Both the position numbers and the translations under genes were made by a program. Below are positions 3,658-27,262 of a DNA stretch of 29,536 nt, piece after piece. This stretch comes from a virus. The DNA lies in the IMG/VR virus record IMGVR_UViG_3300010354_000409, positions 1 through 29,536 of that record, one strand, 5' to 3'. The notes below the pieces were generated by a model. It saw only the letters and a program-made list of their open reading frames with translations, made no database searches and was not told the origin of the DNA. Each line of letters starts with the position of its first letter. Position 1 is the first letter of the stretch.

Positions 3658-4095
3658 GTGTCTCAGTTCACTAAGAACCTTGAGCTAAATACTGTAGTCA
3701 ATAGCGGTCTGACCGACGCCTCGCGCCGTACAGGATCGACGCATTTCGATCAGCGCCGTATTCTCGACGCCAGCGGCGTGGTTGTCGTGGATTCTTCCAG
3801 CCGTACATACGCTGCTGATGGTTCTTACGGGATATCTGATTATTACCCTCTGACCGTAAACGCTACCGGCATCCTGCAGGTTGATATTCGAGATCAGAAC
3901 AGCTGCGGTGATGTCATTATTTTGGATTCGAGCGGGGAGGAGGTGATGACTGCTTCTCCCTCCAAGTTCAGCAGCCGGAACAGTACTGTTACTCAGCAGC
4001 GAATTGCCAGCAGCGGTGCTTATTACGCCTATATTCAGTTGAAAGGCCGTTCCGGTTCTGAGTATCGGATCGGCATTGATGTTCAAGTTCAGTGA
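3658..4095 (+). CDS. Beta-rich protein, 145 aa, possibly a jelly-roll/PPC-like domain
   Basis: GTG start at 3658; the stop overlaps the endolysin start (GTGA at 4092). There is no signal peptide. The protein is made of short alternating strands (VVVVDSSSRTY, GILQVDIRDQNSCGDVIILD, GAYYAYIQLKG, EYRIGIDVQV) typical of a beta-sandwich. The order resembles pre-peptidase C-terminal (PPC) or jelly-roll domains of secreted and virion proteins, in which ILDSSGEEV is a common turn. It is co-transcribed with the endolysin, so it may be a virion decoration or cell-wall-binding accessory. I do not recognise a named family. Confidence 0.65.
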   Translation: MSQFTKNLELNTVVNSGLTDASRRTGSTHFDQRRILDASGVVVVDSSSRTYAADGSYGISDYYPLTVNATGILQVDIRDQNSCGDVIILDSSGEEVMTASPSKFSSRNSTVTQQRIASSGAYYAYIQLKGRSGSEYRIGIDVQVQ

Positions 4096-5330
4096 ACGTT
4101 TCCGCCAAAGGTCTTGATTTAATCAAGCGTTTTGAGGGTTGTGAGCTAACTTCTTATCAAGATATTGGCGGCGTCTGGACAATTGGCTGGGGTACGACTG
4201 GTCCTCACGTCGGCCCTAAACTAACAATCACTCAAGCCCAAGCCGACACGTGGCTTCAGGAGAGTGTCAACAATTTTGCTGACGGCGTCCATAACCTTCT
4301 TAAGGTTTCGGTCAACCAGAATCAATTTGATGCTCTGGTCAGCTTTTCGTACAACGTAGGTATAGGAGCTTTCAAAAGTTCTACCCTTTTACGTTTACTG
4401 AATGACGGTGCTGAGGCATCTGTTGTCGCATCTGAGTTTCTCCGTTGGACGAAAGTCGACGGAAAGATTATCGAAGGCTTAAAAAATCGCCGAGAAGCTG
4501 AGCGCGAGCTATTTTTAACCAAGGTTTTGCATCCGCTCTTGTCTGCTTCTATCCTTGCCCAGCGGGACACCTGGCTAAAGCGGGAGCCCAAGCAAGCCTC
4601 TGACCTGGCGGCCGAACAAAAGCTTTTCGTCCCTAAGGGCTCAGCACACCGCTGGCAGGCCATCACGATGATTCCCGGCGAGAAGCACTACAAGCTGACT
4701 CTGGAGGCTCAGCCTGACCGCTCGTGGTGGATGTGGCCCAATGATTTCAAAATCATCAATGACCCCGCTCCAGTCGAAGACGAGACGGTAACTCACCCTC
4801 AGCCCTTAGTTCTTTCGGTTCCCTATTACAGCCAGCGGGATAATCAAACAGACCCTCTGCGCACTTGCTTCTCCAGCAGTTGCGCCATGCTTTTAAAATT
4901 TCTCAAACCCAACAGTATTTCTGGAGACGATCAGTACATTAAAACTGTATATAAGTACGGAGATACAACGTCTGCTGCCGCTCAGCTTTCTGCGCTCTCT
5001 TCTTACGGGTTAAAAGCTGAGTTTTGTCAGGACTTCGGTTGGAGTGATATCGACTCCCAGTTGGTGCGCGGTATCCCTGTTCCTATTGGGATTCTTCATC
5101 ACGGACCTGTCGGCGCTCCTACAGGCGGTGGCCACTGGATCGTGATTATCGGCCGCAACGAGGATAATACAAGGTACGTTGTGAACGACCCCTTCGGCGA
5201 GTTAGACCTCGTTAACGGCGGTTACGTTTCCACCAACGGCAAAGGACTGCTTTACTCTAAGAAGAACCTAGGCCCCCGCTTCCTCGTGGAAGGCCCTGGG
5301 AGCGGCTGGGCTATTCGAGCTTTCAAATGA
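4092..5330 (+). CDS. Modular endolysin: GH24 muramidase plus C39-like cysteine peptidase domain
   Basis: Residues about 1-145 form a T4-type lysozyme (GH24): E15 in IKRFEGCE, D24 and T30 in GGVWTIGWGT form the catalytic E/D/T set that cleaves the MurNAc-GlcNAc bond. A linker of about 95 residues with Trp/Lys/Pro-rich sequence follows (possibly an SH3-like or wall-binding part). Residues about 240-400 resemble peptidase C39_2: Q in VPYYSQRDN, Cys near 259 in RTCFSSSCAM, His near 348 in GGGHWIVIIG and Asp in VVNDPFGE. This suggests a second, peptide-cutting activity. At 412 residues it is over twice a plain phage lysozyme. No signal sequence is seen, so export would need a holin. GTG start overlaps the previous stop. 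Confidence 0.88.
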   Translation: MNVSAKGLDLIKRFEGCELTSYQDIGGVWTIGWGTTGPHVGPKLTITQAQADTWLQESVNNFADGVHNLLKVSVNQNQFDALVSFSYNVGIGAFKSSTLLRLLNDGAEASVVASEFLRWTKVDGKIIEGLKNRREAERELFLTKVLHPLLSASILAQRDTWLKREPKQASDLAAEQKLFVPKGSAHRWQAITMIPGEKHYKLTLEAQPDRSWWMWPNDFKIINDPAPVEDETVTHPQPLVLSVPYYSQRDNQTDPLRTCFSSSCAMLLKFLKPNSISGDDQYIKTVYKYGDTTSAAAQLSALSSYGLKAEFCQDFGWSDIDSQLVRGIPVPIGILHHGPVGAPTGGGHWIVIIGRNEDNTRYVVNDPFGELDLVNGGYVSTNGKGLLYSKKNLGPRFLVEGPGSGWAIRAFK

Positions 5331-6621: not shown

Positions 6622-7344
6622 GTGGATCCTAAATTCAGGGTGGATGTGCTGAATCAAACAGTGCATCCGCAAACTCTCGTTTGGTTTGCCCTTCATCAAG
6701 ATTATTCAGAGACTTACGTTTTTACAGAGGATCCTCCGAACGAGTCTAGAGCTGGCGAAATCATCACAAAGCGGTTGCTCGCAGGTGAACGCGGGCATTA
6801 CGGTCCGCTAGAGCATCCATCCATCACATTCAGCTGCGGGTTTTTTCCTCACTCCGTGATGCAGCAGGCGCGCACGCACCGCGTGGCCGTGTCGTTTGAC
6901 GTTCAGTCCATGCGCTATACGGGCAATCGTATCTGCCAGGCTGCGGATGGTTTGGTTGATCTGGAAGACGTTTTTTATTTGCGCCCTGTAGGTACTTATT
7001 CCGACCGCCAAGGAAAAAAATATACCTACACCGAGGAGCACCGCAGCGAAGATCTAGTTATCTGTAAAGCCGCTGCTCAGCGTTATTGCCATATGGTTCG
7101 CTATCTGGGGCACGCGGAAGAGCATGCGCGAGGCATTCTGCCCTTTGATTTCCGGCAGCACTTTGTCGTCACGTTCAGCATGCGCTCCTTCCTTCACTTC
7201 ATGGATCTGCGCAGCAAGCTCGATGCTCAGGAAGAGATTCGCAATCTATGCGATCTGATGTGGCCGCACTTCACTGCGTGGGCGCCTGAAATCGCAACCT
7301 GGTACGAGAAGTCTCGCTTGCATAAAGCGCGTTTAGCTCCCTAA
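6622..7344 (+). CDS. thyX: Flavin-dependent thymidylate synthase ThyX
   Basis: ThyX makes dTMP from dUMP using methylene-tetrahydrofolate, NADPH and FAD, without the DHFR that ThyA requires. The 240-residue length fits. The signature region is RTHRVAVSFDVQSMRY (residues 84-99), a variant of the RHR(x7)S motif with one extra residue, as in the cyanobacterial/cyanophage type; upstream GPLEHPSITF and downstream ARGILPFDFRQHF and FLHFMDLRSKLDAQEEIR are also typical ThyX blocks for dUMP/FAD binding. GTG start at 6622 follows a 44-codon ORF by 9 bp. It is a common cyanophage auxiliary gene that boosts nucleotide supply for replication. It is the last + strand gene of the run and is followed by a hairpin. 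Confidence 0.93.
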   Translation: MDPKFRVDVLNQTVHPQTLVWFALHQDYSETYVFTEDPPNESRAGEIITKRLLAGERGHYGPLEHPSITFSCGFFPHSVMQQARTHRVAVSFDVQSMRYTGNRICQAADGLVDLEDVFYLRPVGTYSDRQGKKYTYTEEHRSEDLVICKAAAQRYCHMVRYLGHAEEHARGILPFDFRQHFVVTFSMRSFLHFMDLRSKLDAQEEIRNLCDLMWPHFTAWAPEIATWYEKSRLHKARLAP

Positions 7345-7991: not shown

Positions 7992-10731
7992 GAGCTTCGA
8001 AGGCCGGTTTCCAGAGAGCACTGTCAGGGTTAGAGGCCCACTCGACCGGAGACGGTAAGCGGTTTGAACCGGCCGCCGCTCGATCGGTCGAGGGGTCGTA
8101 CGGCTTCAATCGTAGTCCGGTGAATACGGCTTTGCCATTTACAAACTTAGGCCCAACACCCTCGACCTTGAGCACGTTCCTAATGGTTTCTTTCAATCGG
8201 TCAACGAAGCGAGGTTTTGCTGAGTGCTTGTATCCGTTTGATTTGCAGAAATTGACATAGCTCGCATACAATTCTGTGTATGCATTTTTAACGAACATAC
8301 CTTTCTCAGCCTCGTCCGTGTTGGGTCTAAAAGCACCAGCTCCAATCAACCCGTGGCTATTAGGTGCGTACATCGTGCACTCCGCTAGCCAAGCCACATA
8401 CGGATTGTTGAAGATCAGCGCTTCGAGGTTGGTCGCGTTGAGCGAAGGCACGTGCTTGACGGGGTTAGCCAGCACGTCGCGCATTTCATCGAAGGGCATA
8501 TCGAGAGCCCAGGAGACCACACCGCTAAGCTCGGGGACGAGGTCGCCCTCCAGTCGATCTGCGTATACGTTCAGAAGGTCGCGCCGCTGGGACGCCGGTA
8601 CGACCTTGTCCATGATGATCGTTAGGCGGCGACGCTCTAGACCGCTGCTGATGTCCGAGGAGCTGATATGCTCGTTAGATGCGATACAGACCAGTACTTC
8701 TGGCTTGAAGTTAATTACTTCTTTACCATACTTACGTTCAGCTCTCAGCGTATCTGATGCGGACGTAATCTTTTTTAGAACATCCAAGCGTTTGTTAAAG
8801 TTAGCCTCGTCTGTAAGTAGCAGAAGTTTCTTGCCGATTAGGTTGTAGCATTCAAATTTATTTGTTTCGATCGTTTCCAGGTTACTGGTGTGAGTCCCGG
8901 AGAACCCAGCTAGTGCAATCAACAGCTGCTGCATTGTTGATTTACCTGTCCCACCAGGACCGACGAGGTGGAGGAAACGCTCCCCCGTGGTGTACCCCGT
9001 CAGAAGCGCACGGCAAAACGCCCGAATGATGATCTTCTTGTCCTGTCCGATGCACGAGTCCAACCACGCGTGGAAGTTTGGACACTGAGCGGCTTTGTCG
9101 TACGGAAACGCGAGCTTGCTGCGTAGATAGAGCTCTTTCTGGCTGCCCTCCTGGAACCCCATCGAGTTCCCGTCTAGGACACCGTTTTTGAAGGGGATCT
9201 GCCCTTTGCTGCTGCTCCAGATGGACACCCGTCCACCGTTCACAGACTTGAGCAGCTTACCTTTGAGGATCTGGAAAACCGAGCTAACGGTCGATGCGCT
9301 GTAGCGAGGCATCACACCCGCAGCTACAAATGTATCTAGTGTTTTTATAATCCTTCGTTTGATGTGCTGTTCGTCTTGTACGTACCAGATACCTTCGTCT
9401 ACGTCGTATGTAAAGAACTCATCCAAAGAAGAGTCAAACAGAAATTCATTACCGTAATTATTGACGATGATATCTGCGACATCGTTCTCAGAAAACTGAC
9501 GGTTTCCCTGCTGCAGCTGGACCAGCTGAGCCGGAGTCGACGGCGTGGAGGCCATGGGATCGGGGGGTGTAGATGTTGATGTTGGTGTTGCTGCCGGTTT
9601 CGTATCCATCTCTCGAACTAAATCGTCGAAAGTGAGTACGGAGTTGGCTGGCTTTGGTTTTTTCGACGCGATTTCTGTACGTACATTGTCCGTACACTTT
9701 GCTTCGAAAATTTCTCTGTGAGTGCTCTTAAGTCTCTTCCAGGCAGCTAAAGACCCATCGTCTGACGCCATGACCACAGCGGGCTGCAGCGTTTCAGGAT
9801 CTGTGATGCTGTTCAGGATCCGGTTGAATTTGCCATCCAGCACAGGGTCGTATTCGTAGACATTCTCGAACACCCGGTGTGCGGTTGTCAAGGGCTGTTC
9901 GCGTGTCGCGATGCCCTGAGCGTTCAGCCAGTTGCTCCAGCCGATGATTTCCTTGAGGGCAATCGCCAGCGCGAAGGAGCGGTCTTCAACTTCTTCGCCA
10001 TCCAGCATTGACCGGACTGTGCTGCTGACCAGGCGTTCGAGGTCAACCCCCTCCGGCGATTGCTGCGTGTTTAAGTGCTGCTCCGCATCCCGTACCGCCT
10101 CTTCCGGAGGAGGCAGCGTGGCGTACACAGCGTATGCCTCATCAATCTTAGATGCCGGTATGAATTTATCTGTGACTACCAGTAAGCTAGAAGTTCCTTT
10201 TCCGCCGTAAAATAAATTGACGGCTTGGGTAGCACGCCTGTCTGATCCTGGTATTTGTTGCGCAATGTGCCTGGTAAACCATTGGTAGAACCCGGCGTCG
10301 ATGATTGGTTTTTCTAGACCAAACACCAAACGAAACCTAGGCCAAGTCTCTGTGTGAGACGGCGATAGGTAGGCGAGACTCAGATATTTATTACAGATAT
10401 TTAGCTCTAGTGCCTGAGCTACGTCCAGTTCTTGCTTTTGTATCTTGTTGCCGTCTTTATCTTTCCCATCTGCTTGGTTGTCGATGTCAATGATGATCAA
10501 ACCGGCTTTGATTGCACCGGTATTGCCCTCGCGTCTTCGCCCATCGACAAGGTGCCAGGCACACAAGCCAGCTTGCTGCGTGGTGACAGCGTCAGCTAGT
10601 GCTGCGATGTCCTTTTCTTGAGGAAGCCAGTTGTTGTTGAAAGCGGCGAAGTTGCCCCCCGCCGCGATCTTGCCCGTCGCAGGGTTGACGTACTCAGAGA
10701 CTGCGTAGTTGATTGAGAAGAAAAAGTCCAT
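7963..10731 (-). CDS. Bifunctional primase (AEP-like) and SF3 (D5-type) helicase
   Basis: This 922-residue protein has an N-terminal primase-polymerase-like half: LIIIDIDN (near residues 77-84) supplies the metal-binding DxD, and SPSHTETWPRFRLVFGL is the conserved block of archaeo-eukaryotic primases in plasmid and phage replicases. A Pro/Thr-rich linker (about residues 380-405) leads to a D5/SF3 helicase: Walker A GPGGTGKST near residue 590, Walker B KLLLLTDEANF, and motif C VLVCIASNEH, followed by GLERRRLTIIMD. It would prime and unwind DNA at the fork for the DNA polymerase at 17510. ATG at 10731 is preceded by AGGAG and by a 12-bp palindrome. Its 3' end overlaps the downstream gene by 29 bp. 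Confidence 0.88.
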   Translation of the reverse strand: MDFFFSINYAVSEYVNPATGKIAAGGNFAAFNNNWLPQEKDIAALADAVTTQQAGLCAWHLVDGRRREGNTGAIKAGLIIIDIDNQADGKDKDGNKIQKQELDVAQALELNICNKYLSLAYLSPSHTETWPRFRLVFGLEKPIIDAGFYQWFTRHIAQQIPGSDRRATQAVNLFYGGKGTSSLLVVTDKFIPASKIDEAYAVYATLPPPEEAVRDAEQHLNTQQSPEGVDLERLVSSTVRSMLDGEEVEDRSFALAIALKEIIGWSNWLNAQGIATREQPLTTAHRVFENVYEYDPVLDGKFNRILNSITDPETLQPAVVMASDDGSLAAWKRLKSTHREIFEAKCTDNVRTEIASKKPKPANSVLTFDDLVREMDTKPAATPTSTSTPPDPMASTPSTPAQLVQLQQGNRQFSENDVADIIVNNYGNEFLFDSSLDEFFTYDVDEGIWYVQDEQHIKRRIIKTLDTFVAAGVMPRYSASTVSSVFQILKGKLLKSVNGGRVSIWSSSKGQIPFKNGVLDGNSMGFQEGSQKELYLRSKLAFPYDKAAQCPNFHAWLDSCIGQDKKIIIRAFCRALLTGYTTGERFLHLVGPGGTGKSTMQQLLIALAGFSGTHTSNLETIETNKFECYNLIGKKLLLLTDEANFNKRLDVLKKITSASDTLRAERKYGKEVINFKPEVLVCIASNEHISSSDISSGLERRRLTIIMDKVVPASQRRDLLNVYADRLEGDLVPELSGVVSWALDMPFDEMRDVLANPVKHVPSLNATNLEALIFNNPYVAWLAECTMYAPNSHGLIGAGAFRPNTDEAEKGMFVKNAYTELYASYVNFCKSNGYKHSAKPRFVDRLKETIRNVLKVEGVGPKFVNGKAVFTGLRLKPYDPSTDRAAAGSNRLPSPVEWASNPDSALWKPAFEAHDQIPVESA

Positions 10732-13744: not shown

Positions 13745-14389
13745 TCAGAGGGAGAAATCGATAGAACCGATAGCAGCGGCAGCCACTTTACCCTTTTCGG
13801 GATCAACAGCTTTTTTTGGCGTTTGCTTAGAGGATTTGGGGAGATAGAGGATCTTATCTACTGTGTAGTTAAGATAATTCCTATCATCCTTTTCACTCGT
13901 TGAAACCTTGCCTACCGCGATAGTGGGTGTGCCTGGTGCAAGCTCGGCGAGTTGTTTAGACAGCTCACCCCAAGCTGTCATTTTAAACCAAGCGGTTTCG
14001 TTTTCTTCTGTCTGCCACGCAAGTGAACGATTGGTTACGGTTGTGTCTGAAAGCTCGACTTCGTCGGCTTTCGGGCCGAGACCCCCCGTGGCCATGAAGA
14101 CGTTAATAGCGAGAAGATCCTCGAAATTATCTTCTGTGACAATCAGCATGGGTTGCATCTTAAGCACACCATCGATTGTCGGTTTAGTAGGACCCATCGC
14201 TAACACGGTTTGTCCTACTTCCAATTTTTTAAGTAATTTCCCGACGTAGTGATTCGATTGTTGCAGGAGTTGGAATTTGGTTTCAACTCTTTTGTCGTTC
14301 GAGGGAAGCGCTTCAGCTAAGACGTTCACAATGCCGTCGTTGTCATCCGCCGTTGCGGTGACTTTCAGGCCCATTAGAAACAAGTTCAT
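13745..14389 (-). CDS. SSB-like OB-fold single-stranded DNA-binding protein
   Basis: The 214-residue product contains an OB-fold-like half (about residues 90-185): AINVFMATGGLGPKAD, TTVTNRSLAWQTEENETAWF and KMTAWGELSKQLAELAPGT, then TIAVGKVSTSEKDDRNYLNY. This matches the strand order and the W/F-x-V/M-x-AWG turn of bacterial SSBs. An N-terminal part of about 85 residues may be a second OB-like fold. A Lys/Ala-rich tail ends in GSIDFSL instead of the acidic DDDIPF tip. It should coat ssDNA during replication by the nearby polymerase and helicase. ATG at 14389 lies inside the end of the upstream gene (47-bp overlap); MGLKV at 14374 is an alternative start. Confidence 0.65.
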   Translation of the reverse strand: MNLFLMGLKVTATADDNDGIVNVLAEALPSNDKRVETKFQLLQQSNHYVGKLLKKLEVGQTVLAMGPTKPTIDGVLKMQPMLIVTEDNFEDLLAINVFMATGGLGPKADEVELSDTTVTNRSLAWQTEENETAWFKMTAWGELSKQLAELAPGTPTIAVGKVSTSEKDDRNYLNYTVDKILYLPKSSKQTPKKAVDPEKGKVAAAAIGSIDFSL

Positions 14390-14921
14390 TGCTTAGTTGT
14401 CTGTAAATAGTCGATCGGTGGACGTTGAGAGCCGCGGCTATCTGGGGGATCCCGACACCTTGGCTCCGGTAGGCTACTACCAATTTCCTGTCGCCGCATG
14501 AGATTTTCTCGTTTTTGCCTTGGACGTAGGTGAAATGATATGGATTTATACATTTCTTACACAGACATTTAGGTTTTGCTGTGACGCCGTCTTTGGGGAT
14601 ATCTAAGTATTTCAAGATTATTGTTCTTATGTAGTGCCTGGACCCCAAGACGTATGTACACGGAACGTTGTTCGTAAACGTTCCTTCCCACTCGCGGCAT
14701 TCACCGTGGGTGAAATTGTTCTCAGCGAGATCTTTAAATAGTTTTGACAGTAAATCTTCTTCGCAGTTGCTGTAATTAAGGTTGTATTTTTCCGCCCCTA
14801 ACGAACGAGAGATATCTCCTGCTTGCGCCTGTGCGTGCCCACTGTCTTGTGCCGTTATTTGTAGATTTAGTTTTTTGGTCTCTTTTATCAGAGACAGCAC
14901 GTATTTATCCTTAATAAGCAT
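14343..14921 (-). CDS. HNH-like zinc protein with C-terminal helix-turn-helix, 192 aa
   Basis: The middle (about residues 73-128) follows the phage small-HNH layout CxEWxG...(Y)xxxR...: CREWEGTFTNNV, then a loop CLCKKCINPYHFTYVQGKN, where CxxC-x-NPxH are zinc/active-site positions; the usual first His of the H-N-H set is replaced around KPKCLC, so activity is doubtful. The C-terminus SQGVGIPQIAAALNVHRSTI followed by YRQL is a textbook Hin/resolvase-type HTH for binding DNA. The combination suggests a homing or sequence-specific DNA-binding protein. Its stop overlaps the SSB-like gene by 47 bp. An alternative is a transcription regulator built on a dead HNH scaffold. Confidence 0.65.
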   Translation of the reverse strand: MLIKDKYVLSLIKETKKLNLQITAQDSGHAQAQAGDISRSLGAEKYNLNYSNCEEDLLSKLFKDLAENNFTHGECREWEGTFTNNVPCTYVLGSRHYIRTIILKYLDIPKDGVTAKPKCLCKKCINPYHFTYVQGKNEKISCGDRKLVVAYRSQGVGIPQIAAALNVHRSTIYRQLSNELVSNGPESHRNGG

Positions 14922-14944
14922 GCTGGGCTTTTTTAGGCAGCTTA

Positions 14945-16117
<1,173 letters not shown>

Positions 16118-19408: not shown

Positions 19409-19423
19409 GAGAAGAAAAGAAAA

Positions 19424-19443
19424 AACCCCAGCAGGCTGGGGTT
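19424..19443 (-). terminator. Intrinsic terminator between gene 19475 and DNA polymerase
   Basis: AACCCCAGC and GCTGGGGTT form a 9-bp stem with a very tight loop; on the minus strand it is followed by TTTTTTCTTTTC. It ends the 19475-20287 transcript but leaves only 15 bp to the polymerase ATG, so polymerase expression must rely on read-through, antitermination, processing or an internal promoter in the preceding gene. Confidence 0.8.
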
Positions 19444-19474
19444 TGATGATAGGTCTTTTTTTGTCCTTTGACCG

Positions 19475-20287
19475 TCAGACGTGACGACTCGCAAAAACCC
19501 GGTCAATGTAGTCGTCGATGTCGCCCCAGGAGTTGAGTAACTCACATCCCTTTGAGGTGGCTCGGACCTTGTAGTACACGCGCTGCATGTGCTCTGCCTT
19601 TGCGTGCGCGTCATCCTTGAAGCTGCCGACCGAGATTCCTTTTTCCTGGTCGACCAACCCGTGGTTCCGGCACCAGATCAGCCCCTCGCGAAGCCCGATA
19701 TACACCGGAGATACGTGGAAGGTGTTTTTCCGGTTGACGTCGCTCGCGTTGTCTACGGGTTCCCAAGCCCCGATGTTCGGGTTCCGCTCGAATCCTCGGA
19801 AAGCAACGCAGGTTTCCCGCACGCTCGTGTTGCGCCACAGAGTATTTACATAATCTGTAGCTGCTTCTCTCAGTGTTACCCAGTCGCTCGCGCAACTACG
19901 CAGCAACAAGGCAGCTCCTGCAGACCAATAGCAGCTGTGGGAGTTGAGCTTTTCAATCAGCTCGTCAGCGGTGGCACTCTCTTTAAAGATCTTTTTATGC
20001 GCGCCATTCCTTGTCACGGGCGTCGAGCGTTTATTGCTGAAGTTAGTTTTGCCCTCAGCGAAATTTTGAATGGAGATTTTCCAAGCCAGCGAGGCAAGTT
20101 CTGGATTCTGTTCCTTGACTGACAGTTCGAAGAGTCGATTGCTGTCGAGCTTCTTCAGATCAAAGACCTTAGTCAGTTCAATTTCAATGGGACCCTGACC
20201 GTATTCCCCCGTGGCAGCTAGGAGAGCAGCCGCCTCGGCTTGTTTGATCGGGGTGTTCCCCAGCAAGAATTGGAAAGGCATGTTCAT
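19475..20287 (-). CDS. Hypothetical protein, 270 aa
   Basis: ATG at 20287 (MNMPFQFLLGNTPIKQ) is chosen; ATG at 20281 is also possible, while the GTG at 20317 would overlap the putative promoter start. No domain is recognised. The N-terminal third is helical and Ala/Leu-rich, the middle basic (FSNKRSTPVTRNGAHKKIFK), and the C-terminal half mixed alpha/beta (NTFHVSPVYIGLREGLIWCR, MQRVYYKVRATSKGCELL). It is a single-gene transcription unit by sequence: a TATACT box lies upstream and a strong terminator downstream. Its length and separate control suggest a well-expressed gene. Confidence 0.65.
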   Translation of the reverse strand: MNMPFQFLLGNTPIKQAEAAALLAATGEYGQGPIEIELTKVFDLKKLDSNRLFELSVKEQNPELASLAWKISIQNFAEGKTNFSNKRSTPVTRNGAHKKIFKESATADELIEKLNSHSCYWSAGAALLLRSCASDWVTLREAATDYVNTLWRNTSVRETCVAFRGFERNPNIGAWEPVDNASDVNRKNTFHVSPVYIGLREGLIWCRNHGLVDQEKGISVGSFKDDAHAKAEHMQRVYYKVRATSKGCELLNSWGDIDDYIDRVFASRHV

Positions 20288-20324
20288 GTGAGTGGAACAG
20301 TGCAAGAGTAGAGACACGCTCGCC

Positions 20325-20350: not shown

Positions 20351-20758
20351 TCAGATTTCTGCGCCGGAGCCTTCTAGCCTCGTTATCCAGACACATATAT
20401 CGTCGGTAATTCGTTCTGCCATTTGTATAACGTCTATATAGCTTATGTCGATGGACAGTAAAAAATCGTCTGTTATCGGCACACCGAACTCCTCCATGAC
20501 ATAGGTAGCTAAAGGCATGCAAACGTCAACACACTCGCCGTCTGCACCATTCTTATAAATACAGAACATTTTCTTAGAGTCTATGAAATCTATATGAGCC
20601 TCCTGATACCTTACGGATTGATGCAGTGAACTCGTTTTGTTAGCTGACATACATTCGAACAATCTATCCCGCACCCAAGAACATAGCTCTATGTCTGTCA
20701 TACCATTGGACTTGTATTCGTTGTATACCGATCGGATTATGCAGGCTATTTCTTTCAT
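20351..20758 (-). CDS. Hypothetical protein, 135 aa
   Basis: ATG at 20758 overlaps the upstream stop (ATGA). The protein is acidic with regular helices (MKEIACIIRSVYNEYKSNG, DVIQMAERITDDICVWITRL) and several Cys, but no zinc motif spacing. No family recognised. It is the last gene of the operon-like run that carries the ViaA-like and RavA-like genes, which may link it to that system or may be incidental. Confidence 0.6.
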   Translation of the reverse strand: MKEIACIIRSVYNEYKSNGMTDIELCSWVRDRLFECMSANKTSSLHQSVRYQEAHIDFIDSKKMFCIYKNGADGECVDVCMPLATYVMEEFGVPITDDFLLSIDISYIDVIQMAERITDDICVWITRLEGSGAEI

Positions 20759-20979
20759 ACAGACTTAATCTTGCTCCACCGTGCTTGTCCGTGAACATGT
20801 CCGACACACACCCACATTTCATTATTTGTAGTGTCGTACCATAGGTGACCCACCCTAGGTCTAGGGGGTTGAGGCGCCGTGGAAATTAGTTCACCCTGCT
20901 CTAATTCGTACTCAGTTTTCTTAGCACCACAATACTCATCTTTTACTCTAGAGATTTCGTCAGCTGGGTTGTTTTCCAT
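20755..20979 (-). CDS. Hypothetical protein, 74 aa
   Basis: ATG at 20979 lies 10 bp after the ViaA-like stop. The N-terminus is acidic and polar; the C-terminal half GHLWYDTTNNEMWVCVGHVH is an aromatic beta-type motif resembling the GxLWYDTTxxxLxVxx repeats of phage tail and adhesin proteins that bind ligands or other structural parts. It is too short to assign. It is coupled to the next gene by an ATGA overlap. Confidence 0.6.
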   Translation of the reverse strand: MENNPADEISRVKDEYCGAKKTEYELEQGELISTAPQPPRPRVGHLWYDTTNNEMWVCVGHVHGQARWSKIKSV

Positions 20980-20988
20980 GGCGTAAAC

Positions 20989-22539
20989 CTAGCGGAGACA
21001 CTTCTGAATTGCATCCACAGCTTTCTCCGTGTTGTAAACGTTCACGGAGTACACATCATCGCTGAACTCTCGACATACGTTGGGTATGTCCGTGTTTATA
21101 CAGACGGTTGACCATTGAGTGCCTGTTGCTGTTTTAAATGCGTTTATCCTTCTCTTTAGGTTTTCATTTACCTCTGAGTGACCGTCTGTGATCATCAGAA
21201 TGTCCGCACGGGGATCCCGACAACCTTTATCGACCGCGTGGCTTAAGACGGCGTTGAAGCTTGTTCCTCCTCCCAGAATCCAGGTCCCTACAAAATCCAG
21301 CATTGTCGGCAGGTTGTTGCTCTTGGGACAAAGCTCCACTGTGTGCTCGACACGCGTATCGAACAAGTTAATTAAAACCTTTCTGTTTTCTTTCAACGCT
21401 TCTTCGGCTACCACAAACGCAATTGCTTTACTCCAGAGTTCCGGCTCCCCGCTCATAGAGCCCGACACGTCTATATACATCACTACCGGACCTTTACCTA
21501 AGTTCTTTTGTTGAGCTGTATAGTCTTTCGTAAGTATAGTTTTCTGGGAGAACTTGAGGGCAAATAATGCGCGGCCCTGGGCGGTTCCTGCTAGTGCAAG
21601 CTCCGCCGGGAAGGCCCGCGTGACATCGTTGCTAAACGTAGCTCCCGTGATCGCTTCATAAGTCGCTGAAGAGCTTTTAGCTCTCTTCCTTTGAATCCAT
21701 ACGCGGCGGAGCGCCCCGAGTTTTTTCGTCAACGCACGAAGTTGTTTGCTGTTCTTTAATCTGTTAGCTAGCTCTTTCTTCTCTTTTAAATCATTTGTTT
21801 TCTTGCCTGAGCCGGGCTGGACCCCGTGGAGAACAGATAAAGCTTCTTCCGTGTCATCGCTTTCCTTAATAACTTGGTCGATGATCTGGCTTGTTTGCGG
21901 TTGGATTCGTTCGGCAGCCTGCTGTATGGCTTCGTTTATTGCTTGGTTTAAAGCTTTACCTGCTCGCCTTGCTTCGTTTGCTTTCTGTGTATCCCCTTCC
22001 TTCTGCGCTTTTTGAAATTGTTCCCGAAGTTCTTGCAGCTTTTGTCCAGCTGAGGTCAGAAGCTCCACGTTGAACTGCTGCTCTTCTATTGCTTTTTGGA
22101 TAACCTCAGCCAGCTTGTTAAGGATATTGACCGAGTTGTTTCCAGCGTTGAACTGGTTGCCTACGCAGCGCGTCAGTAGTTCTGCCCAGCCAGCAGCTTG
22201 CGATAAGTCAGCCATGACCGCATACCAGATCCCATTCTCTGGTTTGTACCCTTCCGGAATTGCTGCGCTGTCGCCGTCGCAAACCTTGCGAAAGTACTGT
22301 TCGTAAGCATCCTCACTGACAAGCCACTTAACGTTGTCGCCGTTGTACAGCCTGTCAAAGATTTCTTTGCCGAGGCGAGACAGCTGCTTGATGTTGTGGT
22401 GATCGATGAGGTAAGTGACAACAGGTCGACTTTCTCGGATGAAGTCGTCCCAGAGAAAATCTGCTAGCGCAGAACAGGCGAGTGTCAGCGGTTCATTGTT
22501 AACAAGACGAATGAATTCTGATTGAGTGTCGAGGTTCAT
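20989..22539 (-). CDS. ViaA-like protein with C-terminal VWA (von Willebrand A) domain
   Basis: Start chosen at ATG 22539 (MNLDTQSEFIRL, 516 aa); the longer frame to 22722 would overlap gene 22559. Residues about 1-240 are helical and Gln/Glu/Ala-rich; about 260-345 carry the ViaA-type block LGALRRVWIQRK ... TRAFPAELALAG ... LFALKFSQKTIL. The VWA domain follows from about 350 with an intact MIDAS: DVSGSMSG (DxSxS), the Thr/Ser in GGGTSFNAVL, and the Asp in DILMITDGHSE. In bacteria ViaA works with the MoxR-type AAA+ ATPase RavA, here encoded two genes upstream in the same operon. It should recruit or regulate the ATPase toward a target protein. Named here by family; target unknown. Confidence 0.82.
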   Translation of the reverse strand: MNLDTQSEFIRLVNNEPLTLACSALADFLWDDFIRESRPVVTYLIDHHNIKQLSRLGKEIFDRLYNGDNVKWLVSEDAYEQYFRKVCDGDSAAIPEGYKPENGIWYAVMADLSQAAGWAELLTRCVGNQFNAGNNSVNILNKLAEVIQKAIEEQQFNVELLTSAGQKLQELREQFQKAQKEGDTQKANEARRAGKALNQAINEAIQQAAERIQPQTSQIIDQVIKESDDTEEALSVLHGVQPGSGKKTNDLKEKKELANRLKNSKQLRALTKKLGALRRVWIQRKRAKSSSATYEAITGATFSNDVTRAFPAELALAGTAQGRALFALKFSQKTILTKDYTAQQKNLGKGPVVMYIDVSGSMSGEPELWSKAIAFVVAEEALKENRKVLINLFDTRVEHTVELCPKSNNLPTMLDFVGTWILGGGTSFNAVLSHAVDKGCRDPRADILMITDGHSEVNENLKRRINAFKTATGTQWSTVCINTDIPNVCREFSDDVYSVNVYNTEKAVDAIQKCLR

Positions 22540-22558
22540 TTGATGTTTTGCTGAAGGT

Positions 22559-22777
22559 TTACTTCTGTTCGACGACTGTGCTGCCTTCGGAGATTTCCTC
22601 TTTGAGAGCTTCTCCGTAACCCCACGCCGCTGCTGTGACCGCCAATCTGTGGATCGGATCTTCGCAGTCCGGATGCCTGGAGTCCTGCAGGATCGAAACC
22701 CACCAGGACTCCACAAGCTCAACCGAAAGTTTGCTCTGTAGTTCCTTACTTGCTGATGTCACTGATGGCTCGCGCAA
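22559..22777 (-). CDS. Small protein between the RavA- and ViaA-like genes, about 72 aa
   Basis: The start is uncertain: TTG at 22777 (72 aa) or GTG at 22762 (67 aa); both overlap the RavA-like 3' end, by 32 or 17 bp. The product is mostly helical and amphipathic (SKLSVELVESWWVSILQDSR, RLAVTAAAWGYGEALKEEIS). No motif is recognised. Sitting exactly between an AAA+ ATPase and its VWA partner, it could be a small adaptor of the complex. Lack of an ATG lowers confidence. Confidence 0.5.
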   Translation of the reverse strand: MREPSVTSASKELQSKLSVELVESWWVSILQDSRHPDCEDPIHRLAVTAAAWGYGEALKEEISEGSTVVEQK

Positions 22778-23933
22778 GGGTATCGCAGTGATTCTGCAGG
22801 GTTTGCTGCAGTTTAACTCCAGAGCTACGCGTGCCCGCAGACATCCTTAGTTTGGATCCATCCAGTAGTTCTGAAACTTTATCCCTCACCGTCGTCATGT
22901 CTTTAGCGTACTTGCGTACCTGTATCACATACTCATTGAGCTCACTCAAACCTTTGACTCTGTACCGATGGCTGTGCGTGCTGTACTCGGCCATGATGCC
23001 CGCCGCTGCTCTTTTTGCGTCGGCGAACACCTTGTCCGCCGTGGGAATCTCTTGCTCCAGGACTTCTTTGATAATGTCCTGATCCTCTGCTGACTGGTAC
23101 ACGATGTGAACCAGACTACCGTGCATATGCTCAGGGAATAGTTCGTCGTCCCCCTGTACAACCGCCCAAGCTTTGAGGAACTTAAGGATCTGAACGCGGC
23201 GACGGTCGCTGATTGTGATCGCTCGTGTCCCCAGCATCTCCCACACAGAACTGAACTTATCCAGGAACTCATCCGACACGGAGATCTGATCAGCTTCAGA
23301 TTGCAACTCAGCCAACTCAGCGAGGGTCAGATGCTCCCCGACAACAGGCCGTTTTTCGAGACCCAGACTCCATGCGTCTAGCCTGCGCTTAGACACTGGT
23401 TTCTGCAGGAGGTTAACTGTCGGGCGGAACAGAAAACGATCAGCGAAAGCTTGCAGCGATTCTTCGTCTGGCCAGCTGTTAGTCGCGGCGATGATCGATT
23501 GAATGGGAGTCTTGATGTTCTCTTTGCCGTTGTTGAATGTCCTCTCGTTTAGAAGAGTGAGCAAGGAGTTCAGGATGGCAGAGGATCCCCGGAATAATTC
23601 ATCCAGGAATCCTATGTGCGCTGTCGGTAGGTAACCTTCGGTGTCACGGGTGTATTCATCGGCGAGAAGTTTAGTCACCGCAACTGGACCGAACACCTCC
23701 GACGGATCCGTTGTGGGGGTGAGTAAGTAGCCAAAATAGTTAGCGCTGGTGATGCCTCCGCATACGCTCCGCACGAGATCTGATTTGCCCGTACCAGGCA
23801 CACCCAGAAGGAAAGCATTCTGCTTACTCAGGAGTGATGCAAGCAATCCGTCAATAACTGGACCGCGTTCCAGATGTGCTGCGCCCAGTGCGCCGCGGAA
23901 GTTTTGCAGTTTGGTGAAAAGTTGATCGTTCAT
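22746..23933 (-). CDS. RavA-like MoxR-family AAA+ ATPase
   Basis: ATG at 23933 forms an ATGA overlap with the preceding gene, giving 395 residues. Walker A is GVPGTGKS (44-51); FGYLLTPTTDPSEVFGP follows as in MoxR proteins; Walker B is IGFLDELF (107-114), continuing into SSAILNSLLTLLNERTF, the helix-2 region diagnostic for the RavA subfamily; sensor 1 is IIAATNSWPD (147-156) and the Arg-finger region DRFLFR (165-170). The C-terminal 200 residues are helical and lack a LARA domain insertion that I can recognise. MoxR ATPases act as chaperones remodelling metal enzymes or membrane complexes, usually with a VWA partner, present here at 20989. Distinct from the CobS ATPase found in T4-like cyanophages. 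Confidence 0.88.
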   Translation of the reverse strand: MNDQLFTKLQNFRGALGAAHLERGPVIDGLLASLLSKQNAFLLGVPGTGKSDLVRSVCGGITSANYFGYLLTPTTDPSEVFGPVAVTKLLADEYTRDTEGYLPTAHIGFLDELFRGSSAILNSLLTLLNERTFNNGKENIKTPIQSIIAATNSWPDEESLQAFADRFLFRPTVNLLQKPVSKRRLDAWSLGLEKRPVVGEHLTLAELAELQSEADQISVSDEFLDKFSSVWEMLGTRAITISDRRRVQILKFLKAWAVVQGDDELFPEHMHGSLVHIVYQSAEDQDIIKEVLEQEIPTADKVFADAKRAAAGIMAEYSTHSHRYRVKGLSELNEYVIQVRKYAKDMTTVRDKVSELLDGSKLRMSAGTRSSGVKLQQTLQNHCDTLARAISDISK

Positions 23934-24154
23934 GACTTTGTTGATTGGGGTTTGTAACCGACTGGATGGGGAAAAGGAATGCAGTGCATGTTTACCCTGC
24001 ACTCTGTCATCAGGAATTTAGCCAGAGCCGCCAGTTTTTTGACGGCGGTATCGTGTTCGACGAAAGTTACGGCCTCGAGAATGTCAGGCGTGTACCTCTC
24101 GATGTCACATAAATATCCTTTGGGTGACTCGATTACGTAAACAAGTCGATCCAT
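23930..24154 (-). CDS. Hypothetical protein, 74 aa
   Basis: ATG at 24154 overlaps the upstream stop and its own stop overlaps the RavA-like start, so it is translationally coupled on both sides. The protein opens with a beta-type segment (MDRLVYVIESPKGYLCDIER) and then a helix (HDTAVKKLAALAKFLMTECR), ending in a Pro/His-rich coil. No family recognised. Tight coupling suggests equal dosage with the ATPase. Confidence 0.65.
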   Translation of the reverse strand: MDRLVYVIESPKGYLCDIERYTPDILEAVTFVEHDTAVKKLAALAKFLMTECRVNMHCIPFPHPVGYKPQSTKS

Positions 24155-25380
24155 TAGAAGTCCACCTCGGCAGCTTTGAATTCTGTTTGCTCGGTTTCTG
24201 TTTCTTGGGGGCGAGTTGTAAGTTCCGACAGAAGTTCATCTAGATTTTCGCCAGCCTCGCCGATGAGTTCTTTGCGCTGGTTGATGAGTTTTTTGAGCTG
24301 CTTGGAACGCTGTGCATAAATGTCTAGTTCCAGGTTTGCATCTTTGACCAAGAGATTAAGGGCGCCGATATTCTCGGCAGCGTTGATGCGCTCACATAGA
24401 GTTTTGTATTGAGAGGAGAGTGCTAGGGACTTCTTGAGCTTTTCTAATCCTTTAGACGCATCTCTGTCTCCGCAGATTCCTTCCAGTTCGTCGCGTATTG
24501 TTTGCTGAACGTTGATGAAATCTTCTGCCGCCTTCTGCCGCGTGGCTCGATCATCAGCTTGGATTCTCGTGCCTGCGTCCAGAAGCTCGGCCGCAAGGTC
24601 AGCCAGTTTTTCGAAGCCAGGGACGGAGTCGCTTATGAGCTGAAGCTTCTCTGCCGTCAGCTGCCAGGATCCCCGCTTTTTAGGCGAACCGGTTTGCTGT
24701 CTACCAATCTTGTGCGAACCACGAACATCCAGATCGTCCAACAATTCTGCGCTGATTTGCAGAGCTTTATCGGCGGCGTTGTTTCTCGCCGCTTCTAAAA
24801 CTTGCTGTGTGTTGATCTGGTTTTCGTAGGCGAGAAGGGAAGCGAGGTCTCCTTCAATTGGTTTGTCGACTTTCTCAAGAGAGATTGGCAAAGGTCCCAG
24901 GACCGACACGCGGATAGGCGCTCGGTATTCTTCCTGTGTGGGAAATAACCGCAGGTAAGCTTCGTGAGCTAGACGAAACTCATCATCTTCCTTGAATAAA
25001 GGACGCAGAATGTTATACGCAGTCTGATGCCAGGCGTCGTACTCTTCTTGCCAGAGATCCTTCAGCCTCTCGTTAGCCTCTTTCGCAGCTTTACGGATGT
25101 CCTTTATCAGAGCGTTAGCGCACTGAAAATAGTTAGAAGTGACAAAGTGAGAATCGCCGTAATGAATGCAATAGCTGTCATACAGTTCACGCTGCATGAC
25201 ACGAAGTGCATCCAGTTCTGCTTTGAGGGAATTCGAAAGATTCGGGCGAAGACTGACGGTGTTGTTTTGTTCAAGGGTTTCAATTACCGACTGCGGCAAC
25301 TTGAGATCGTCAAACTTAATTTGCACTGACTGCCTTACATCGGCAGAGATCGAACAAGCAAGCAAATAATGCGAGGTCAT
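24154..25380 (-). CDS. Long helical/coiled-coil protein of the RavA-ViaA operon, 408 aa
   Basis: ATG at 25380. Nearly the whole protein is predicted helical: an N-terminal part with LRVMQRELYDSYCIHYGD and DIRKAAKEANERLKDLWQEE, a central polar break (GSHKIGRQQTGSPKKRGSWQ) and a long C-terminal coiled-coil half (LDIYAQRSKQLKKLINQRKE). It ends with an acidic Glu/Thr stretch and the tip AAEVDF. Its position directly before a MoxR ATPase and a VWA gene, and its size, recall the DUF3150 proteins found beside MoxR/CobS-VWA pairs on phages and plasmids; I suggest that relation but cannot confirm it. It may be the scaffold or substrate of the ATPase pair. Confidence 0.7.
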   Translation of the reverse strand: MTSHYLLACSISADVRQSVQIKFDDLKLPQSVIETLEQNNTVSLRPNLSNSLKAELDALRVMQRELYDSYCIHYGDSHFVTSNYFQCANALIKDIRKAAKEANERLKDLWQEEYDAWHQTAYNILRPLFKEDDEFRLAHEAYLRLFPTQEEYRAPIRVSVLGPLPISLEKVDKPIEGDLASLLAYENQINTQQVLEAARNNAADKALQISAELLDDLDVRGSHKIGRQQTGSPKKRGSWQLTAEKLQLISDSVPGFEKLADLAAELLDAGTRIQADDRATRQKAAEDFINVQQTIRDELEGICGDRDASKGLEKLKKSLALSSQYKTLCERINAAENIGALNLLVKDANLELDIYAQRSKQLKKLINQRKELIGEAGENLDELLSELTTRPQETETEQTEFKAAEVDF

Positions 25381-25422
25381 TTGTGTTAGTTACAGGGTGT
25401 TGATGTTGCGACTAAGAAGCAA

Positions 25423-25441
25423 CCCCCTCGCCTGGAGGGGG
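25423..25441. terminator. GC-rich hairpin upstream of the RavA-ViaA operon
   Basis: CCCCCTC (25423-25429) and GAGGGGG (25435-25441) pair perfectly around GCCTG, flanked by AAGC and GCTTTT. It follows the 25522 gene on the minus strand by 80 bp and precedes the operon start by 42 bp. The T-run is weak on the minus strand (TTGCTTCTT), so it may act as a partial terminator or attenuator. Confidence 0.55.
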
Positions 25442-25521
25442 CTCAGCTTTTTAGCTCTGGGAAACCCTAGCTCGATCGCCAGGAAAATGCAAGCAGTTCA
25501 CACAGTTGCCTGAGCTGCTCC

Positions 25522-26512: not shown

Positions 26513-27262
26513 TTAACTCTCCACTACAAGTTTCGTGATGTTGTAGTGTTTAATCCAAGTGACCAGTTTAATTGTTGCCTCGGCGGACGGTAGTCCTATG
26601 CAGCCACTAGTCCCGGACTCTCCGTTTAGTTTTCCCCAGCTCGGATCCTGATGGAAGCCCAAGGCTGATCGCCCCGTGGTAAACATCGGCGTAACAGGAA
26701 CCCAGTAACCTCTACCTAATTCCGGGTCATCAAAAGGAGCTGAGGCTACCCCTGTTCGATCAATTCTGTAAGTTCCTTTGGGTAGCGGAGATTTGTTTCC
26801 TGCTGTATTTCGATTAGCTGTCTGTCTATTAGCTCGGCCCGTCAATGCCGGCATAGTCTCTAGAACTACGTTTTGATTGTTGACGAGTTCAAGCGACCAA
26901 ATAGGATCTTTGGTTTCTTTAACTAATTTATCTGTCTTCTTCAGTATCAAAAACGCTTTTGTGCTTGTATTTGTCCGCGGCGGACTCACTCCAGGCCGTA
27001 TCTGGATGGACGGTGTTGCCGATCCCGGTTCTTGAGGAACACCAGGCAACGGACTTGCATCTAAAGGCATCAAACCTTCAGGCAGTTGTGATGCTCCTGG
27101 ACCTGACGTCTGCTCAAGCGGGGATACTTGAGCGTACATCATTTGCCTTAGATGTTCTTCTTGTGCGTCGTGATGCGCAATAAGCTGCGCACCTTGATGC
27201 AGCCCAACAGCAGTGACTACACCAGCCACTGTTCCAATGATCGCAAACATTCTGATTTTCAT
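26513..27262 (-). CDS. L,D-transpeptidase (YkuD-like) protein with N-terminal membrane anchor
   Basis: ATG at 27262 overlaps the previous stop (TAATG). Residues about 4-22 (RMFAIIGTVAGVVTAVGLHQ) are a signal/anchor helix; a Pro/Ser/Gly-rich linker runs to about residue 100; then an LDT-like domain with LPKGTYRIDRTG, SALGFHQDPSWG and the nucleophile region GTSGCIGLPS. YkuD enzymes use HxxxxxxxxxxxSHGC[IV]R[LM]; here the first His, Ser and Cys are kept but SHGC reads TSGC and R reads G, so activity is plausible but altered. Such enzymes form 3-3 crosslinks or attach proteins to peptidoglycan in the periplasm. With its two upstream neighbours it forms an envelope cluster; it could modify the host wall or block superinfection. 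Confidence 0.72.
   Translation of the reverse strand: MKIRMFAIIGTVAGVVTAVGLHQGAQLIAHHDAQEEHLRQMMYAQVSPLEQTSGPGASQLPEGLMPLDASPLPGVPQEPGSATPSIQIRPGVSPPRTNTSTKAFLILKKTDKLVKETKDPIWSLELVNNQNVVLETMPALTGRANRQTANRNTAGNKSPLPKGTYRIDRTGVASAPFDDPELGRGYWVPVTPMFTTGRSALGFHQDPSWGKLNGESGTSGCIGLPSAEATIKLVTWIKHYNITKLVVES

Follow-up and report, generated by a model that had tools for sequence, protein, structure and literature searches.

Gene organisation of the locus

The stretch of DNA analysed here, called the window below, is the whole virus record IMGVR_UViG_3300010354_000409 (29,536 nt, positions 1-29,536, to which all window coordinates refer). Its minus strand carries three genes that encode, in this order, a protein that we call X, a MoxR AAA+ ATPase of the RavA class and a partner protein with a VWA domain. 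The MoxR-VWA pair is of a known type and X, the third protein of the trio, is new. A preliminary description of this DNA had proposed a RavA-ViaA-like system made of five overlapping genes in a cyanophage operon. The five open frames are indeed present on the minus strand at the positions then given; however, two of the starts have to be moved inward, and only X, MoxR and VWA belong to the core. The five genes are the following:

24154-25380, minus strand: open reading frame of X, 408 amino acids (aa), third core subunit
23930-24154, minus strand: optional 74-aa gene between X and MoxR, with matches in 69 of 100 loci and without a family match in the Pfam scan
22746-23933, minus strand: MoxR AAA+ ATPase of the RavA class, 395 aa, start ATG at 23933
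22559-22777, minus strand: small "linker" gene with uncertain exact start (about 67-72 aa), confined to the window lineage with its 86-kb relative
20989-22539, minus strand: VWA partner, 516 aa, start ATG at 22539

The starts of MoxR and VWA are placed inside the longer frames because the relatives all use ATG 23933 (GTG 24002 is not a start) and ATG 22539 (TTG 22722 is not a start), and because the upstream extensions of both frames behave as non-coding: between the window and its 86-kb relative, their ratio of nonsynonymous to synonymous substitution rates (dN/dS) is 1.4-1.7, against about 0.02 for the gene bodies.

Conservation of the trio and selection

We compared 100 loci (20 found as relatives of MoxR and 80 as relatives of X) from 88 distinct contigs. 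The order X-MoxR-VWA is kept on 85 of these 88 viral contigs, which belong to one phage clade, and on the remaining three the contig end falls inside the block, so that the genes are not chance neighbours lacking in relatives, an outcome that the preliminary description had allowed for. The two small genes do not share this constancy. In three loci (L015, L016 and L020) X, MoxR and VWA abut or overlap directly, without the intervening 74-aa gene. The linker has matches in 4 of the 100 loci, all in the window lineage, where it is coding (78% amino acid identity and dN/dS 0.14 against the 86-kb relative), and the other lineages have unrelated small genes, or none, in that slot. The "extra partners" announced beforehand therefore come down to X as a real core partner, the two small genes being optional and variable between lineages. 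More generally, the X-MoxR and MoxR-VWA gaps of several loci (L006, L007, L058, L095, L097, L109 and others) hold differing, unrelated small genes, a pattern that resembles insertion hotspots inside a conserved operon.

The trio is under purifying selection at about the level of the phage polymerase. Between the window and the 86-kb relative, dN/dS is 0.019 for MoxR, 0.023 for VWA and 0.032 for X; the DNA polymerase and the D5 helicase of the same pair of phages each give 0.021. The active sites are intact as well: the Walker A lysine and serine, the Walker B aspartate and glutamate, the sensor-1 asparagine, the arginine finger and the sensor-2 arginine are invariant in all 74 distinct MoxR sequences, and the five residues of the metal ion-dependent adhesion site (MIDAS) are invariant in all 73 distinct VWA sequences.

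Identity of the ATPase and of its VWA partner

The ATPase carries the motifs GVPGTGKS, FLDELFRGSS and LLNERTF, as initially described, and matches the Pfam families bpMoxR (PF20030, E=2.2e-53) and AAA_lid_8. It also matches the NCBIfam RavA model (E=5.5e-40), the RavA structure in the PDB (3nbx, E=4e-33) and, by hhalign, E. coli RavA (probability 99.9% over 279 columns). The partner protein has a helical N-terminal half and a C-terminal VWA domain (Pfam VWA_3 and VWA_2) with a complete MIDAS (DVSGSM, GGGTS, ITDG), and its FPAELALAG segment aligns in hhalign with the PPELATLG block of ViaA; these two features had also been recognised from the start. It matches the NCBIfam ViaA model (E=3.9e-17) and the ViaA profile (hhalign, 98.4% over 246 columns, PPELA block included). 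In Foldseek searches the domain of the VWA model, whose N-terminal half is of low confidence, matches many VWA structures, with NorD of the NorQD complex (9qhe) at rank 36.

A CobS/CobT identity, the competing assignment, was rejected: against these RavA and ViaA matches the CobS-like phage family phrog_249 reaches only E=0.037, whereas phrog_19600 reaches 1.9e-66, so the comparison came out for RavA/ViaA. Likewise, a beta-propeller conflict system cannot be read from the bpMoxR match, which is not specific since E. coli RavA matches the same model (PF20030, E=1.5e-56).

The pair is nevertheless not a RavA-ViaA pair in the strict sense. The scores, 137.9 bits for MoxR and 62.6 bits for VWA, stay far under the equivalog cut-offs of 681 and 500 bits, and the LARA (PF20265) and RavA_C (PF12592) domains, detected in E. 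coli RavA by the Pfam scan, are absent from the phage MoxR in that scan. In the MoxR tree, where long outgroup branches limit deeper inference, the phage sequences form a clade (support 100/99) that joins the MoxR proteins of the X-bearing plasmids presented below (96/93), and RavA lies elsewhere. On sequence grounds, the trio is thus RavA-like, with a RavA-class MoxR core and an adjoining gene for a VWA protein with intact MIDAS, yet not RavA-ViaA proper.

X, the third protein

X is a mostly helical protein with strands in its N-terminal region (E4-13, E71-81, E156-165) and long C-terminal helices; its invariant features are a QTG...RGSW motif and a terminal DF. It belongs to no family in the Pfam scans. 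Its structure was modelled with AlphaFold2 as X alone (mean predicted local distance difference test, pLDDT, 77). Foldseek matches of this model are phage proteins, one of them annotated as DUF3150, with E=2.6e-5 and probability 1.00 at template modelling scores of only 0.39-0.50, and no PDB entry matches at E<=0.001. The model therefore suggests that X may be like phage DUF3150 proteins in fold, without detectable sequence likeness. Indeed, X could not be assigned to DUF3150 by sequence (no PF11348 match in the phage genomes, hhalign probability 0.3%) or to DUF6744 (0.2%). The genes upstream of MoxR in phage CL131 (LPD29) and in the Moorella phage (DUF6744), which served as negative controls, gave hhalign probabilities of 0.6% and 0.1%, and a relation with X was rejected for both. 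The literature searched, in which no paper naming DUF3150 or DUF6744 was present, yielded no description of X, of its conservation together with MoxR-VWA or of a trio that phages share with cyanobacterial plasmids.

Homologous genes on cyanobacterial plasmids

Plasmids of Acaryochloris and Chroococcidiopsis carry a gene annotated "hypothetical protein", followed by an ATPase gene and a VWA gene. The ATPase of an Acaryochloris marina plasmid is 44% identical to the phage MoxR over 77% of the query, and the plasmid VWA protein aligns with that of the phages over nearly its full length (E about 1e-32). The hypothetical proteins match X in hhalign (97.7% and 98.3% over about 345 columns), and hidden Markov model (HMM) searches with X agree in both directions: the plasmid HMM finds the phage proteins at E 5e-26 to 4e-11 and the phage HMM finds the plasmid proteins at 6e-22 to 8e-9, with no other open reading frame of the searched sequences below E=0.6. 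By these comparisons, cyanobacterial plasmids carry a homologous X-MoxR-VWA trio in the same order.

The plasmid module (Acaryochloris pREC1 and pREC4, Chroococcidiopsis pA and pCHRO.01) has no name, its genes being annotated as hypothetical protein, AAA ATPase and VWA protein. It shares with the phage trio its three genes and their order, and the MoxR branches are sisters; it differs by the low identity of X (about 20%) and VWA (about 25%) and by the absence of the 141-aa and 280-aa genes that flank the phage trio. In the Chroococcidiopsis plasmids a toxin-antitoxin pair splits MoxR from VWA. This pair is of the HigA/RelE type and lies on the opposite strand (L138:6553-7198 and L140:10040-10669); in pCHRO.01 the antitoxin alone is annotated. 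A tBLASTn search of 72,556 plasmids with the plasmid X gave matches in Acaryochloris and Chroococcidiopsis only; of the seven plasmids matched, five are typed as conjugative. With the plasmid X as query, a scan of viral sequences gave no match, and no cellular relative of X or VWA appeared in two genome-contig scans, which used phage-specific peptide patterns that diverged chromosomal copies could escape.

Transcription unit and genomic context

The genes and signals around the five-gene block are as follows:

25421-25443, minus strand: predicted intrinsic terminator 5' of X, closing the preceding unit
25384-25395, minus strand: leader box TAACTAAC just 5' of the X start codon
20755-20979, minus strand: optional 74-aa gene 3' of VWA, with matches in 37 of 100 loci
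20351-20758, minus strand: optional 135-aa gene, with matches in 16 of 100 loci
19475-20317, minus strand: conserved 280-aa gene, final gene of the operon, start codon uncertain, in nearly all loci reaching that far
19423-19444, minus strand: predicted intrinsic terminator between the 280-aa gene and polA, closing the operon

Because predicted terminators lie on both flanks, the trio seems to form a separate operon of its own, with the 280-aa gene as its last gene. Terminator-like hairpins recur at both places: 38 of 70 loci have one upstream of X and 54 of 58 have one upstream of polA, whereas only 10 of 300 random windows contain one. An Rfam search of the window gave no RNA match. In 29 of 70 loci an AACTAA sequence occurs no more than 25 nt from X, and in the leaders read no Shine-Dalgarno-like sequence stands between the box and the start of X. 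The flanking 141-aa and 280-aa genes are almost as constant as the trio across the loci of the family; neither was found in Synechococcus phage S-EIV1 or in the cyanobacterial plasmid loci, and the 280-aa gene has no Pfam match. The operon is otherwise non-structural, but the 74-aa protein encoded at 20755-20979 carries a LWYDTTNNEMWV motif with weak matches to head and tail-fibre families.

Positions 2839-28533 of the window are 98% identical to an IMG/VR contig of 82,205 bp (G001). The portal protein of G001 has a sole GenBank relative, that of S-EIV1 (46%), and its terminase has its best GenBank match in the same phage (52%). In environmental data, viruses of the S-EIV1 type form a group of marine cyanophages (PMC5332604). 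The kinship of the phage clade with cyanophages is therefore well supported, and the label "cyanophage" of the preliminary description is kept to that extent; the placement of the host is indirect, as it would follow from kinship with S-EIV1, in which HMM searches found neither X nor MoxR nor VWA. The terminase gene of S-EIV1 itself (L051:9080-11620) exceeds that of its relatives by about 1 kb and aligns with it in two separate segments, which suggests an intein or another insert. Finally, in all six large genomes the trio shares its strand with the replication genes, and the terminase, portal and capsid genes are on the other one.

Comparison with known MoxR-VWA systems

MoxR-VWA pairs recur on phages and plasmids, and earlier descriptions treated them as pairs, omitting X, which appears here as a part of the system. 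E. coli RavA-ViaA resembles the phage trio by its Pfam MoxR class, by a VWA protein with MIDAS and PPELA block and by an ATPase gene placed before the adjoining VWA gene; the phage trio differs by X, by its separate MoxR clade and by the missing domains and the scores given above. Binding of LdcI, fumarate reductase or complex I is a further trait of RavA-ViaA. The DUF6744-MoxR-VWA modules of Moorella phage MTATph1 and of Brevibacillus, Alicyclobacillus, Pseudanabaena and Streptomyces plasmids also associate a RavA-class MoxR, a VWA protein and an additional gene on mobile elements, except that this additional gene belongs to DUF6744, for which no relation to X is detectable. The DUF3150-MoxR-NorD block of pCAR1, reported as conserved in R478, Rts1, SXT and R391 (PMC2642839), is likewise a three-gene module on a conjugative element; its gene order differs, its DUF3150 protein has no detectable sequence likeness to X and its MoxR is of the CbbQ type, with a CbbQ_C domain (PF08406) that the Pfam scan did not find in the phage MoxR.

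Among viruses, MoxR-VWA pairs have been described in Bacillus phage 0305phi8-36 (orf66/orf63, PMC2147016), in group 2.2 jumbo phages (PMC7824862) and in the archaeal Acidianus two-tailed virus (ATV, p618/p892, PMC4124505), the latter being the only one of the viral pairs cited that was studied experimentally. Aphanizomenon phage CL131 carries such a pair too (gp147/146), and N4 gp24/gp25 is probably another, as judged from its domains. The pairs of 0305phi8-36, CL131, N4 and ATV resemble the phage trio by their association of MoxR with VWA, and differ by other MoxR branches and other partners; neither the CL131 nor the N4 pair was found to have X beside it. N4 gp25 (L135:3165-4307) consists of a DUF2201_N metallopeptidase domain (Pfam 3e-87) and a DUF2201 VWA-like domain (1e-46), and its annotation as "HNH endonuclease" looks like an error. 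Other plasmid and phage pairs sometimes stand beside replication genes, namely dnaN (CL131 and the Alicyclobacillus plasmid) or the gene of a single-stranded DNA-binding protein (Pseudanabaena plasmid). Campylobacter phage A11a was discarded as a case of phage RavA-ViaA: in its locus (L149, MG065691.1:6492-15244), the 7,025 bp surrounding the RavA-ViaA match are 100% identical to E. coli K-12 and look like contamination with E. coli DNA. The GenBank record is marked UNVERIFIED.

Proposed function

We propose, with a probability of about 0.5, that the trio is a three-part ATP-driven machine which remodels a protein complex needed or displaced by incoming mobile DNA, and that it is unlikely to build virions. 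MoxR would form a ring, presumably a hexamer, and would work through the VWA protein as adaptor on a client complex. In NorQD, the VWA protein inserts a finger into the pore of MoxR and is twisted by the ATPase (PMC13036017); by analogy, the phage MoxR hexamer should act on its client via VWA. X would be a dedicated third subunit, most likely recognising or scaffolding the substrate complex, and the machine would be expressed from a separate operon, located in the half of the phage genome that serves replication (early to middle). The likely client would be a complex of the cyanobacterial cell, for instance one that replicates or maintains DNA, or else a barrier that the host sets against incoming DNA. 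We infer that MoxR assembles as a hexamer, that all three proteins join in a single complex and that X is the substrate adaptor, and also when the genes are expressed and what kind of target the machine has. A client involved in the intracellular establishment or replication of DNA, or in a host barrier, is more likely than the virion because the trio occurs on particle-free plasmids and lies with the replication genes of the phages.

Several points weigh against this proposal. The three-protein complex is inferred, and X was modelled on its own. Early or middle expression is a presumption drawn from strand and gene placement. Replication genes abound in phage and plasmid surroundings in any case, which makes their proximity to the trio weak evidence. 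The sole cultured relative, S-EIV1, is without the trio, which is thus dispensable in part of the wider lineage. Finally, possible conflict genes (NACHT and CHAT) stand in the vicinity of the plasmid trios too, which would fit defence or counter-defence.

This last observation leads to the idea that the machine puts an immunity complex of the host out of action or protects the cell from rival elements; the variable small genes would then supply the matching effectors. MoxR-vWA ternary conflict systems are known (PMC7159879), and the presence of the trio on both phages and cyanobacterial plasmids, with gaps filled by differing small genes in each lineage, agrees with such a role. We consider it unlikely, however: Pfam scans detected no effector domain, nor, in X and VWA, any of the ternary-system components VMAP, iSTAND, FtsH and beta-propeller; PADLOC gave no meaningful match; and the dN/dS values of the trio are among the lowest of the genome, which is unusual for arms-race genes. 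An assembly chaperone for the virion, a role inferred for ATV p618/p892 and put forward for the MoxR-vWA pairs of group 2.2 jumbo phages (PMC7824862), was among the suggestions of the preliminary description and now appears improbable, because the plasmids with the complete homologous trio make no virions, and because the operon goes with the replication genes rather than with the structural module; moreover, S-EIV1 has related terminase and portal genes and yet lacks the trio.

There is similarly little to expect from an auxiliary metabolic module that would activate or repair a host metalloenzyme or a respiratory or photosynthetic complex in the manner of RavA, NorQD or CbbQO. RavA, NorQ and CbbQ systems do target such complexes (PMC3893208, PMC13036017, PMC4660213), and the phage and plasmid trios are both tied to cyanobacteria; against this, CbbQ_C, LARA and RavA_C are all absent from the phage MoxR, the trio is not close to any metabolic target gene, and related RavA-class MoxR-VWA pairs occur in the Moorella phage and in Gram-positive plasmids, without photosynthesis or Rubisco.

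The proposal of a remodelling machine for incoming DNA can be extended, tentatively and with less confidence than the proposal itself. Mobile elements across bacteria might use MoxR-VWA machines with exchangeable third subunits (X, DUF6744, DUF3150 and others) on DNA-processing machinery in order to establish or replicate incoming DNA, X-MoxR-VWA being the form common to cyanophages and cyanobacterial plasmids. "Exchangeable third subunit" is here a reading of gene order, homology of X to DUF6744 or DUF3150 being undetected in sequence. The phage clade offers a compact case of such machines, with strict co-conservation, intact active sites, constraint at the level of a polymerase and a plasmid form in culturable cyanobacteria; together, the phage and plasmid forms open the role of MoxR-VWA for mobile DNA to direct testing.

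Other genes of the window and of its relative

Among the remaining genes of the window, a YkuD L,D-transpeptidase-like gene (26513-27262, Pfam 7e-8) lies in the region of the replication strand and is unusual for a phage. The endolysin (4092-5330) is a fusion of a phage lysozyme domain with a C39-like peptidase domain. An Exostosin-like glycosyltransferase is encoded at 1060-1986, and further glycosyltransferases lie close to the terminase in G001 (8321-9103 and 14324-15733). Finally, the window encodes an S-adenosylmethionine decarboxylase (2015-2374) and a thymidylate synthase (6622-7344), both of which are kinds of genes annotated in S-EIV1 as well.

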